Shown one piece after another: positions 3,098 to 11,810 of a stretch of DNA of 13,765 bases. Location: the NCBI GenBank assembly GCA_947649215.1, contig CANSQW010000013.1:1-13765 (forward strand). The letters run 5' to 3'. A model generated the notes under the pieces. The model had not been told where the DNA came from, did not search any database, and saw nothing but the letters and a program-made list of their open reading frames with translations. The stretch is from an uncultured bacterium (GTDB lineage: Bacteria > Actinomycetota > Coriobacteriia > Coriobacteriales > Eggerthellaceae). Made by a program: the position numbers and the translations under genes. Within the stretch, counting starts at the first letter, position 1. Each line of letters starts with the position of its first letter.

Positions 3098-5746
3098 ATG
3101 AAACTTCCTGACATCAGCCGGCGCACCTTCGTCGCTACCGCCGCGGCGGGTGGGGCGGCCGTGGGACTGGGCGCCATCGGGGGCGCCGATCCCGCTGATG
3201 CGCTCACCCCAGCCGAGCCCCTCGGGGGCAGCTGGGTGCGCACCACCTGCTCGCCCAACTGCACCGGCGCCTGCGGTGTCGAGGCGTGGGTGGAAGACGG
3301 CCAGGTGCGCATGGTGCGCCAAGCCGCCGACTATCCCTACGAGCACTACAACCCGCGCGGGTGCCTCAAGGGACTCTCCGTCAACACCATCCTCCACGGG
3401 CCCGACCGCCTGACCATGCCCCTCGTGCGCAACGAGGCCGGCGAGCAGGTGGAAGCGGACTGGGACACCGCGCTCGACGACGCCGCCGGCCGGCTGCGCG
3501 CCATCATGGACGAGTACGGCCCCAATTCCGTGGGCGTCATCTACCAGGTGCAGGGCACCGGCCACATCCAGAAGGGCGCGCTCGTGCGCATTGCCAACAC
3601 CTTCGGCTGGTCGGTCATCGGCGGCTATGAGCTCAACGGCGACCTGCCGATGTTCTGGCCCGAGACCTTCGGCTGCCAGAGCGAGGAGCTGGAGTCCTAC
3701 TGCTGGGAGGACTCGCGGCTCACGCTCATCTTCGGCTCCAACATCATGGTCACGCGCATGCCCGACGCGCACTTCCTCACCTATTCCCAGGAGGCGGGCG
3801 GCAAGGTCATCTACTTCGATCCCAACTACTCCGCCTCGGCGGAGAAGGCCGACGAGTGGGTGCGCATCGCGCCCGACTCCGACGGCGCCTTCGCGCTGGC
3901 CATGGCCAAGGTCATCATCGACGAGGGGCTCTACGACGCCCACTTCATGGCCACCTACACCGATGCGCCCCTGCTCATCAACTTGGCCACCGGCAAGCGC
4001 ATCCTGGCCGACGACGTGGCGGGGCTCGCCGCCGTGCCCGACGTTCCCGACTATCGGTCGAGCTTCGTGGCCTTCGACCAGGCGAGCGGCGCGCTGGCCG
4101 CGGTGACGCCGCTTGAGCTGCCCGACAACGCCTACGCGCTGACCGGCTCCTTCGACGTGCCCCTCAAGGACGGCAGCACCGTCCAGGCCAAGACGGGCTT
4201 CCAGCTGCTGACCGAGCAGCTGGAAGCGTACACGCCCGAGGACGCCTCCGTCATCTGCGGCATCGACCCCGACGTCATCACGCGCATCGCCCGCGAGGCC
4301 GCCACGGTGAAGCCTCTGCACATCATCTTCGGCGGCGGCACCCAGCAGTGGTACCACGGCGACCTGAAGGGCCGCGCCTGCGCGCTCGTGGCGTGCCTGA
4401 CGGGCAACATCGGCCAGCTGGGCGGCGGCATCTCCACCTATGTCGGCCAATACAAGACGCGCTTCAACACCGCCAGCTGGATGGTGCCGCCCGACGCCGT
4501 CAAGGCGTCCTGCCCGTTCCACTACGCGGTGAACGGCCCCACGCCGCTCATGAAGGCCACCTACCCCAAGGACGGCTTCAAGGCCCTCGTGGTGGGCTGG
4601 GGCAACCCGCTCGAGCAGCACAACGTGGCCGACTGGCTGCGCGGCGCGCTGGCCTCGGGCCAGATCGAGTGCCTGGTGAGCCTGGACTTCCAGCGCACCC
4701 TCACCGTGGCCGAGTCCACCGTCGCCTTCCCCTGCGCCAGCTGGTACGAGAAGACCGAGCTCACCACCACCCCGCTGCACCCCTACGTGCAGCTCCAGCA
4801 GCGCATCGTCGACCCGCCGGGCCAGGCCCAGGAGGAGATCTGGGTGCTCACCGAGCTGGCCAACCGCATCGACCCGTCGAAGGCCGAGGCGTGGCCGCGC
4901 TTCGCCCCGGAGGACTCGGAGAAGCGCGCTGACGAGGTGCTGGCGCTGCTGCTGCGCGAGGGCGGCCCCACCATTAACCACCTCACGCCTGAACTGCTGC
5001 GCGAGGGCCCGGGCAAGCTGGCCCACAGCAACCCCGGCGAGAAGCGCATACCCTTCTGGGAGCAGGTCAACGAGCGCATCCCCTTCCCCACCGTCTCGCG
5101 CCCGAACCCCCTCGACGTCACCTCCAAGTTCGTGCGCTCCGGGCGCATCGAGTTCTACCGCGACGAGGACATCTTCCTCGACCTGGGCGAGCAGCTTCCC
5201 TGCTACAAGCCGCCCTTCGAGGACACGGAGTACGCCGCCAACCCCGACGCGCGCGAGCTCTACCCGCTGGGCTACACCACGCGCAACAGCGCCTTCCGCG
5301 TCCACGCCACCTACGTGAACAGCCCGTTCATGCTGGAGATGCAGGACAACACGCCCAAGGTGTGGCTCAACCCCGCCACCGCCGCCGAGCGCGGCCTCAA
5401 GAACGGCGACTGGGTAGAGGTCTACAACGACCGCGGCACCGTGCAGGGCCAGCTCGTGGAAGATCCCGGCGTCTATCCCACGCAGTGCATCTTCGACCAG
5501 GGCTGGTGGTCGCACTACGACAACGGCACGAGCTACAACTCGCTCATCTGGCCGTGGATCAACCCCACCAACGAGGCGTACTACCTGGTGAGCGTCTGGT
5601 CGCCCAACATGGCCTGGAACGAGACCGCCTGCAACGTGCGCCTGTACGAGGGAGGCCGGCCTCAGGTGGTCACCGACACCGGCAAGAGCGTCCTCCAGGG
5701 CGGCGCGGGGGCGGCCTCGCCCGTCGAGTACGGGAAGGAGGCGTAG
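3098..5746 (+). CDS. Tat-exported molybdopterin oxidoreductase catalytic subunit, NarG/type II DMSO reductase-like
   Basis: An 882-residue catalytic subunit. A Tat signal is clear (SRRTFVA at residues 7-13, hydrophobic stretch to about 29, likely cleavage near ADA at 33-35), placing the enzyme outside the membrane. A 4Fe-4S site follows: C51, C55, C59 and C89. NGDLPMFWPETFG puts D182 at the place of the aspartate Mo ligand of NarG (CDLPPASPQTWG). The similarity continues through GSN-x5-R-MPDAHFLT (about 213-228) and DSDGAFALAMA (about 260-270). The C-terminal molybdopterin-binding domain has RVHATYVNSPFML and VWLNPATAAERGLKNGDWVEVYN, again NarG-like. Known type II enzymes act on nitrate, selenate, chlorate, dimethyl sulfide or hydrocarbons; the substrate here cannot be read. 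It differs from NarG in having Cys rather than His as first Fe-S ligand, and an NrfD-type anchor downstream. A GAAGGCGAGG motif precedes the ATG. No dedicated TorD/NarJ chaperone gene is seen nearby. Confidence 0.93.
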   Translation: MKLPDISRRTFVATAAAGGAAVGLGAIGGADPADALTPAEPLGGSWVRTTCSPNCTGACGVEAWVEDGQVRMVRQAADYPYEHYNPRGCLKGLSVNTILHGPDRLTMPLVRNEAGEQVEADWDTALDDAAGRLRAIMDEYGPNSVGVIYQVQGTGHIQKGALVRIANTFGWSVIGGYELNGDLPMFWPETFGCQSEELESYCWEDSRLTLIFGSNIMVTRMPDAHFLTYSQEAGGKVIYFDPNYSASAEKADEWVRIAPDSDGAFALAMAKVIIDEGLYDAHFMATYTDAPLLINLATGKRILADDVAGLAAVPDVPDYRSSFVAFDQASGALAAVTPLELPDNAYALTGSFDVPLKDGSTVQAKTGFQLLTEQLEAYTPEDASVICGIDPDVITRIAREAATVKPLHIIFGGGTQQWYHGDLKGRACALVACLTGNIGQLGGGISTYVGQYKTRFNTASWMVPPDAVKASCPFHYAVNGPTPLMKATYPKDGFKALVVGWGNPLEQHNVADWLRGALASGQIECLVSLDFQRTLTVAESTVAFPCASWYEKTELTTTPLHPYVQLQQRIVDPPGQAQEEIWVLTELANRIDPSKAEAWPRFAPEDSEKRADEVLALLLREGGPTINHLTPELLREGPGKLAHSNPGEKRIPFWEQVNERIPFPTVSRPNPLDVTSKFVRSGRIEFYRDEDIFLDLGEQLPCYKPPFEDTEYAANPDARELYPLGYTTRNSAFRVHATYVNSPFMLEMQDNTPKVWLNPATAAERGLKNGDWVEVYNDRGTVQGQLVEDPGVYPTQCIFDQGWWSHYDNGTSYNSLIWPWINPTNEAYYLVSVWSPNMAWNETACNVRLYEGGRPQVVTDTGKSVLQGGAGAASPVEYGKEA

Positions 5747-10370: not shown

Positions 10371-10709
10371 ATGGAAAGCTACTACAACCCCGAGGATCTG
10401 AGTCTGTTCTCCGCCGACGGCGTGGGCGAGGGCGCACCCGAGCTGTGGGACCTGTACATGGCCTACTACGGCAAGGTGTTCGAGGAAGGCGAGCTGACCG
10501 CCCGGGAGAAGGCGCTCATCGCGCTGGCCGTGGCCGCCACCGTGCAGTGCCCGTACTGCATCGACGCCTACACCAACTCCTGCATGGAGAAGGGCGTCAC
10601 GCTCGAGCAGATGACCGAGGCCTTCCACGTGGCCAACGCCATTCGCGGCGGCGCGGCGCTGGCCCACGGCGTGCAGATGAAGAAGCTCGTCGAGCAGCTG
10701 GAGATGTAG
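10371..10709 (+). CDS. AhpD-like carboxymuconolactone decarboxylase-family protein, arsenosugar-associated
   Basis: A 112-residue alpha-helical AhpD/CMD-fold protein. The redox motif is C60-P-Y-C63-IDAYTNSC71. In AhpD the position four after the second Cys is a His proton relay (CxxCxxxH); here it is Y67, so classic peroxidase chemistry may be altered. The start at 10371 (MESYYNPEDL) is preferred over the in-frame ATG at 10302, because GGAGGAAGGAG lies directly upstream and the 23-residue extension (Arg-rich) does not belong to the fold and would lie almost at the transcription start. Genes of this type regularly accompany arsS (the 'arsenosugar biosynthesis-associated peroxidase-like' family). 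It lies 87 bp before arsS in the same operon. Its precise step is unknown; a redox partner for the ArsS Sec/Cys tail is an inference. Confidence 0.88.
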   Translation: MESYYNPEDLSLFSADGVGEGAPELWDLYMAYYGKVFEEGELTAREKALIALAVAATVQCPYCIDAYTNSCMEKGVTLEQMTEAFHVANAIRGGAALAHGVQMKKLVEQLEM

Positions 10710-10722: not shown

Positions 10723-10796
10723 GATGACGAGCCGGGCGAGGCAGCGGCGCGCAAGGCAGCCGCTCCCCTCCGGCCCGCGCTACCCGAGGAGGAGCA

Positions 10797-11801
10797 ATGC
10801 CCGGATTAGAGGAGGTGCGGGAGGCACTGGCCGCATACCCGCCGTTCTGGGAGAGGGCCGACGCGTTCGGCACCACCGAGGACGCCCTGGACACCCTGCA
10901 GATCAACATCGGCCTGAAGTGCAACTTCGCGTGCAAGCACTGCCATGTGGAGTCGAGCCCCGCGCGCACCGAGGAGATGTCGCGCGAGACGCTCGAGCAG
11001 TGCCTGCGCGTCTTTCGCGACCGCGGCTTCAAGGTGATCGACGTCACCGGCGGCGCGCCCGAGATGAATCCGCATTACGAGTGGTTCCTGCGCGAGGCCG
11101 TGGCAGCCGGCGCCCAGGTGATGACCCGGTCGAACCTGGCCATCTGCGAGGAGCCGGGCTACGAGCACCTGCCCGAGCTGTGGGCCGACCTGGGCGTGAC
11201 CGTCATCGCATCGCTCCCCCACTACGTCAAGCGCACGTCCGAGAAGCAGCGCGGCGCAGACAGCTTCGACCCCGCCATCCGCCTGCTGCAGCGCCTGTGC
11301 GCGCTGGGCTACGGGCGCGGGCCGGGATTCGGGCCCGACGCGGGCGCACTCGAGCTCGACCTGGTGTTCAACCCCAACGGCGCCGTGCTGCCGCCCGACC
11401 AGAAGGCGCTCGAGCGCGAATACAAGCAGAAGCTGGCAGCCGACTTCGGCATCAGCTTCGACAACCTGTTCGTCATCACCAACGCGCCCGGCGGTCGCTT
11501 CGGCGCGCGGCTGCTGGACACCGGCAACATGGATCGCTATATGGGCAAGCTGATCGGCGCGTTCAACGGCGACACGCTGGAGGGCATGATGTGCCGCACC
11601 CAACTGTCGGTGCGCTGGGATGGGCGGCTCTACGACTGCGACTTCAACCAGGCGATGGAGCTGCCCTGCAGAAGCGGGCTCACCATCGCCGACCTGGCCG
11701 CCGACCCGTCGCTGCCGCTGCAGCGCAACATCGCCTTCGCCAACCACTGCTACGCCTGCACCGCTGGCGCGGGCAGCAGTTGAGGCGGCGCCACGGCGTA
11801 G
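10797..11801 (+). CDS. arsS: Arsenosugar biosynthesis radical SAM enzyme ArsS, predicted selenoprotein (Sec at codon 329)
   Basis: A 334-residue radical SAM protein. The SAM/4Fe-4S motif is C42-NFA-C46-KH-C49, followed by DVTGGAPEMNPHYEWF, as in ArsS. The C-terminal Cys-rich domain (DUF3641 type) has FNPNGAVLPPDQ, FDNLFVITNAPGGRF, CRTQLSVRWDGRLYDCDFNQ and HCYACTAGAGSS. Family members continue this last motif with Cys, or Sec in known selenoprotein members, followed by Gly. Here the next codon is TGA (11781-11783), then GGATA and TAG (11799-11801). A SECIS-like hairpin follows at the right distance, so I annotate to 11801. Known ArsS joins dimethylarsenic to a 5'-deoxyadenosyl group. GAGGAGGAG precedes the ATG. 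No arsM methyltransferase is in the window, and selenocysteine machinery is also outside it. The ArsS identity is firm; Sec decoding is strongly supported but unproven. Confidence 0.88.
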
Positions 11802-11810
11802 GTCTACGCC
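11784..11810 (+). promoter_or_regulatory. Bacterial-type SECIS element (selenocysteine insertion)
   Basis: GGCGTA (11795-11800) pairs perfectly with TACGCC (11805-11810) around the loop GGTC (11801-11804). The loop begins 17 nt after the UGA. In E. coli fdhF the SelB-bound hairpin also has a GGUC loop, 18 nt after its UGA. The bulged U of the E. coli upper stem is absent here. The stop codon of arsS (TAG, 11799-11801) lies inside this hairpin. Matching codon context, distance and loop make coincidence unlikely. Confidence 0.85.

Follow-up and report, generated by a model that had tools for sequence, protein, structure and literature searches.

The SECIS hairpin of E. coli fdhF has a GGUC apical loop as well as a bulged U and is situated within the coding sequence. 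Bacterial SECIS (bSECIS) elements have been described by a broader rule, given in the accessible part of PMC13188914 as a loop of 3-9 nt, a stem of 4-16 bp, a G at loop position 1 or 2, a distance of 16-37 nt from the UGA and an energy of -7.5 kcal/mol or lower. Predicted selenoproteins also include a 'Radical SAM domain protein, TIGR04167', with AAR34688.1 as the example, according to the accessible parts of two reviews (PMC13188914, PMC9312934), and NCBIfam already names this family '(seleno)protein ArsS'. We analysed a window, that is, the whole stretch of 13,765 nt from an uncultured member of the Eggerthellaceae, and found that its arsS gene very probably encodes such a radical SAM selenoprotein, in which UGA 329 would be read as selenocysteine (Sec) by means of a hairpin overlapping the true stop codon. 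The window's ArsS shares with described TIGR04167 members the family, the domains, the C-terminal Sec/Cys position and the TIGR04169 neighbour, and it ends in GSSU at the place where the accessible review table gives GxxU. The window's gene differs in host lineage and in that its putative SECIS overlaps the stop codon.

The assignment to a known selenoprotein family, as a new member and not as a new family, is strongly supported. A sequence-only reading of the same DNA had claimed that the ArsS family contains selenoproteins, which agrees with the NCBIfam name and with the predictions in the accessible parts of PMC13188914 and PMC9312934; the novelty that it implied was overstated for the same reason. 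What is new here is this ArsS member together with a tight and conserved layout in which the stop codon lies within the SECIS. We did not meet this layout among the titles listed from the accessible open-licence literature on bSECIS, bacterial selenoproteins and ArsS, nor in the accessible parts of PMC13188914, PMC9312934 and PMC12013277, which is no proof of novelty. Among open-licence papers, none was found that joined selenoprotein, arsenosugar and radical SAM, no title listed for ArsS and selenoprotein concerned this enzyme, and the titles on Eggerthellaceae and selenocysteine dealt with unrelated subjects.

With UGA taken as Sec, the arsS coding sequence spans 10797..11801 on the + strand and comprises 334 residues with Sec329 and a UAG stop, as judged from translation, TIGR04167 and Pfam. 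An AGGAGG, Shine-Dalgarno-like, was seen directly at 10787..10792 (+), 4 nt 5' of the ATG, and directly upstream of arsS lies a gene for an arsenosugar biosynthesis-associated peroxidase-like protein (10371..10709, +; NCBIfam TIGR04169, 168.5 bits vs a cut-off of 120). ArsS itself scored 374.4 bits against TIGR04167 (arsenosugar biosynthesis radical SAM (seleno)protein ArsS; curated cut-off 300), with the Pfam domains Radical_SAM (40.7 bits) and, at the C-terminus, DUF3641 (166.7 bits). Its putative role in arsenosugar biosynthesis follows from the family name, with which the TIGR04169 neighbour agrees. The open reading frame closed by TGA (11781..11783, +) runs from 10797 to 11783 and encodes 328 amino acids, the last of which read ...NHCYACTAGAGSS. 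The same frame 3' of the TGA continues with GGC GGC GCC ACG GCG (GGATA) and then reaches TAG at 11799..11801 (+). Re-reading of the sequence reproduced exactly the frame, the TGA, the TAG, the hairpin and the 17-nt spacing that the sequence-only reading had reported near the end of arsS. The window had no Rfam match at gathering thresholds, and ARAGORN found no tRNA within it.

The UGA codon aligned with Cys or Sec in 66/66 rows of an alignment (A3) for whose rows the selecting motif demanded that codon 329 encode Cys or be a stop, in agreement with the claim that the frame stops one residue before a conserved Cys/Sec. Over a larger set of 124 rows from 122 loci, chosen by a motif needing Cys or a stop at 329, codon 329 was TGC in 70, TGT in 34 and TGA in 20, that is, Cys in 104. 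This motif was passed by all 30 ArsS loci of the family search and by all 80 of the wider search, the latter being the best 80 of at least 528 confirmed loci. The family search returned 81 single ArsS matches over the cut-off, of which the TGA ones (18/18) were all taken in and the Cys ones in part; two repeats (L043 of L016, L060 of L037) were left out of the codon count, and one locus (L048) missed the row filter, nonetheless carrying Cys at the 329 position. Neither TAA nor TAG occurred at codon 329 in any of the 124 rows collected, so the homologues with an ordinary stop that had been named beforehand as evidence against Sec did not appear. Because Cys and UGA replace each other at one column (104 Cys, 20 TGA, no TAA or TAG), these counts support the Sec reading.

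Sec329 would be the fifth conserved position beside Cys 266, 281, 318 and 321, which are invariant in 66/66 rows, 318 and 321 belonging to the collecting motif. The radical SAM motif CxxxCxxC (C42/C46/C49) was likewise present in 66/66 rows, having doubled as a selection rule. Profile positions 260-315 weakly matched an anaerobic sulfatase-maturating enzyme (E 0.003), and anaerobic sulfatase maturase is a SPASM enzyme. Judging from conservation and this weak profile match, the four C-terminal Cys residues may hold an auxiliary Fe-S cluster, and a chemical role for Sec329 near that cluster is our guess.

The putative SECIS stem-loop occupies 11795..11810 (+), with a 6-bp stem, GGCGUA/UACGCC, formed by the arms 11795-11800 and 11805-11810, and the loop GGUC at 11801-11804 between them. 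The distance from TGA to loop is exactly 17 nt (11784-11800). As had been claimed, the stop codon forms part of the stem: the U and A of UAG are paired and the G is loop base 1. The window's hairpin has the GGUC loop of the fdhF SECIS at nearly the same spacing, but neither its bulged U nor its position inside the coding sequence. In comparison with the bSECISearch consensus in the accessible part of PMC13188914, it has a loop of 4 nt, a stem of 6 bp, a G at loop position 1, a 17-nt distance and an energy of -9.0 kcal/mol, all within the published ranges, the energy holding for a 26-nt piece only, as longer pieces fold otherwise; it departs from the consensus in containing the true stop and lying half outside the coding sequence. 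The 26-nt piece has this hairpin as its minimum-energy fold, and 12/200 shuffles were equally good. On a 32-nt piece it lies within the minimum-energy fold (-12.0 kcal/mol), together with a second small hairpin, with 62/200 shuffles as good, and on 50- and 61-nt pieces a different structure was preferred over it.

On its own, the hairpin is modestly unusual. Under a strict rule (a loop containing GG or GU and starting at 16-20 nt), which was devised after the loci had been inspected, 6 bp were reached by 76/5000 dinucleotide shuffles, and 746/5000 matched it under the looser published geometry. Such numbers are what one might expect if the TGA were an ordinary stop that ends a truncated ArsS at Ser328, with a hairpin that is there by chance or is otherwise employed, and the absence of a selA or selD match from the window's metagenome-assembled genome (MAG) points the same way. 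We nevertheless consider an ordinary stop highly improbable, and the window's hairpin goes beyond chance because it is conserved together with the TGA across relatives. ArsS over the cut-off was found in 54/138 genomes of Eggerthellaceae, with a single in-frame TGA in 18, the window's included. In 17 of these 18 TGA genes, spread over 12 genus codes, the TGA is followed by five codons, TAG and a hairpin whose loop begins inside the stop codon; after the TA, these 17 loci read GGTC in 12 cases and GTTT, GGTT or GGGT in the rest. The 18th gene (L042) encodes an 11-residue tail and has its hairpin 5' of the stop. The five-residue tail is kept alike in Cys and TGA genes, which also argues against termination at Ser328, as do the sel genes carried by genomes with TGA arsS and the paired changes in the stem, both described below.

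The hairpin followed the TGA when distinct genes were counted, one record (L069) being left out as presumably identical to L034. Under the strict rule it was present in 18/19 TGA genes vs 0/25 family Cys genes and 3/79 other Cys genes, the sole miss among the TGA genes being L066 from Lachnospiraceae. The loose published geometry was matched by 19/19, 5/25 and 17/79, respectively. On a fixed 28-nt piece, -7.5 kcal/mol was reached by 14/19 TGA genes, 5/25 family Cys genes, 2/14 short Cys copies and 2/79 other Cys genes. The short Cys-type ArsS of the family matches the window's ArsS as far as residue 328 and in most cases also in the tail GG-x-TA; unlike the window's TGA arsS, it has TGC or TGT at codon 329, no strict-rule hairpin and a variable stop.

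Several further observations were made on these genes. The TGA arsS of L066, from an uncultured Lachnospiraceae bacterium, ends in a TAA stop, and a hairpin GUUCC-GUC-GGAAC was seen by eye right after that stop. In one family gene (L045, G033:C188), the end of TGA ArsS reads GSSU-CGETA, with Cys next after Sec, a position that is mostly Gly in the other TGA members of the family. Many ArsS-like matches in family genomes lie in open frames of more than 600 codons (for example L013, L016, L018, L033, L037 and L059); they carry Cys and tails such as CEGTLVQ or CGGTLVQ, no TGA was marked inside those over the cut-off, and they are perhaps a fused or extended paralogue. Three genomes of the window's own genus have no TGA arsS, and the ArsS matches there are long open frames with Cys, which counts against the Sec reading.

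The stop codons separate the two gene types in a similar manner. TAG was the stop in 17/17 stop-in-hairpin loci vs 5/14 short Cys copies (Fisher 1e-4, a guide only, as the sequences are related), the 14 short Cys arsS of the family ending in TAA (8), TAG (5) and TGA (1). With UAG, the first two bases (UA) can join the stem and the third (G) the loop, which is the likely reason for the choice of UAG. UAA would be disfavoured because the loop would lose its first G, and UGA as the end stop because the A-U pair would become G-U and the loop would open with an A; the bSECIS model, as given in the accessible part of PMC13188914, does not strictly forbid either.

Covariation was scored on seven of the 19 TGA loci, those sharing a 4-nt loop, a small and related set whose selection leans towards structure; the 17-row alignment was kept out of the scoring, as its loop lengths differ. 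Pairing was kept in 42/42 cells of the seven loci, and the pair types were GC, CG and GU at column 15 and GC, CG and UA at column 18. These columns correspond to third codon positions (Thr and Ala), and the two-sided changes occur there. The covariation score of 0.413 was reached by 0/500 shuffles, and every slid version scored below it. At least as many further pair types arose in 7/500 shuffles, and at least the two pairs observed with a two-sided change in 130/500. The best tree of 54 rows placed eight Sec/Cys changes, with 7-8 in bootstrap trees and five forced by well-supported (starred) branches. In this tree the window's ArsS clusters with four Sec proteins (G018, G030, G056 and G057; branch 100/99), and a Cys clade neighbours this Sec group with weak support (84/67).

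The machinery for Sec insertion was then sought in the window's genome (G000), a partial assembly of 1.7 Mb in 316 contigs that is 56.55% complete. A tRNA-Sec gene (selC) was identified at C146:478-570 with 71.2 bits, and ARAGORN agreed, giving the anticodon tca. Just before it, at the contig edge of C146, lies the 3' end of selB, matching profile positions 515-579 only with about 36 bits. Searches of this 56.55%-complete assembly gave no match to selA or to the rest of selB, and no selD match over the cut-off. A 38-bit selD match (L012) was rejected as HypE, for which it scored 447.5 bits vs a cut-off of 251.6. Contigs C146 and C110 are collinear with the sequences that flank selA and 5' selB in a genome of the same genus, G058 (86.5% and 93.6% identity), and we attribute the lack of selA and 5' selB in G000 to an assembly gap because this collinearity puts their place there. 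The sequence-only reading had offered an absence of selB and selC from the complete genome as grounds for abandoning Sec; selC and the 3' end of selB are present, while selA, the rest of selB and selD were not found in the 56.55%-complete assembly.

Two formate dehydrogenases of G000, L161 on C110 and L162 on C6, have TGA at the Sec position, within the motifs RVUHSPTVAGL and RTUHGPTVVGL, respectively. One of the two enzymes is full-length and 96% identical to that of G058, which exceeds the TIGR01553 cut-off, and the other scored 807.9 bits vs 666.25 for TIGR01591; both are likely further selenoproteins of G000. Because the genome carries tRNA-Sec, the selB 3' end and these two formate dehydrogenases, the Sec reading of arsS gains support. 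It is exceedingly improbable that the UGA is instead suppressed as Trp or Cys, a possibility listed for completeness and for which no supporting point was found; against it stand the tRNA-Sec with anticodon TCA in G000 and the fact that every other row has Cys at this column. A molybdopterin oxidoreductase query gave 70 match rows in G000, with several rows per gene possible, including the window's own gene at 3098-5746.

In the 17 other genomes with TGA arsS, matches over the cut-off were found for selA in 17 and for selD, selB and tRNA-Sec in 16 each. One of them (G066) lacks selD and selB, and another (G081) gave no tRNA-Sec match, but the first part of the gene was seen at a contig end. 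The 14 genomes with short Cys arsS had selA in 3, selB in 3, selD in 4 and tRNA-Sec in 4. This association of sel genes with TGA is limited because the genomes are related: three independent pairs on starred branches agreed or were uninformative, a number too small for significance, and a sign test was not significant. In the family as a whole, selD was found in 73 genomes and a credible tRNA-Sec in 74. tRNA-Sec hits scoring 47-50 bits with lengths of 75-76 nt were rejected as ordinary tRNAs by length and score, and they were the sole matches in G044, G090, G091, G092, G120 and G122, leaving 74 of the 80 matching genomes as credible.

Five genomes have tRNA-Sec but no selD, namely G000 (57% complete), G066 (82%), G125 (77%), G058 and G059 (both 97%). 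These last two belong to the window's genus and are the only family genomes more than 90% complete that combine a credible tRNA-Sec with no selD. Six-frame profile searches of whole genomes gave no selD over the cut-off in the same-genus G058 and G059 (97%) and G060 (77%), and the sel loci of G058 were also inspected directly in 18 kb and 8 kb around them. This gap is a weak point for Sec insertion in the window's genus. It would fit a genus whose Sec system is failing, so that a UGA that until recently specified Sec now mostly ends translation, as selD was found neither in G058 and G059 nor in the window's MAG. We regard such a recent failure as very unlikely, however, as selA, selB and selC are retained in both G058 and G059, the TGA is kept in the 96%-identical Sec formate dehydrogenase of G000 and G058, and the stem of the window's arsS is still fully paired. 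Besides selA and selB, G058 carries two tRNA-Sec genes, and a Sec formate dehydrogenase gene adjoins its selA. The second of these tRNA-Sec genes (L155, C1:727224-727316) is divergent, agreeing with that of G000 at 77/93 bases vs 90/93 for the copy beside selB. A fuller proposal, which we put forward as speculative and rather unlikely as a whole, is that ArsS and the two formate dehydrogenases are made as selenoproteins in this genus by means of selA, selB and selC, no canonical SelD and an unrecognised protein as the supplier of selenophosphate, and that throughout its family the SECIS has captured the ArsS stop and holds it as UAG.

The Sec reading of the arsS UGA made in the sequence-only reading is thus supported by the Cys/TGA exchange, the conserved hairpin, the covariation and part of the sel genes, all at the level of sequence, and the following course of decoding is proposed. 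When the ribosome arrives at UGA 329 of the arsS mRNA, SelB with Sec-tRNA(Sec) would bind the hairpin with the GGUC loop, the stem of which is separated from the UGA by 11 nt, and Sec would be delivered at UGA 329 in place of termination. The ribosome would then continue for five codons, melt the hairpin and terminate at the UAG inside it. The steps proposed for arsS follow established SelB-dependent decoding.

These results correct the end of the arsS gene and add to arsenic metabolism a group of selenoproteins with good support. The lack of a recognisable selD in the window's genus is an oddity that can be tested. With its repeated exchange of Sec and Cys, ArsS is an enzyme in which the benefit of Sec can be studied in a natural setting. 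The layout with the stop inside the SECIS is a clear example in which an RNA signal seems to constrain which stop codon is used.
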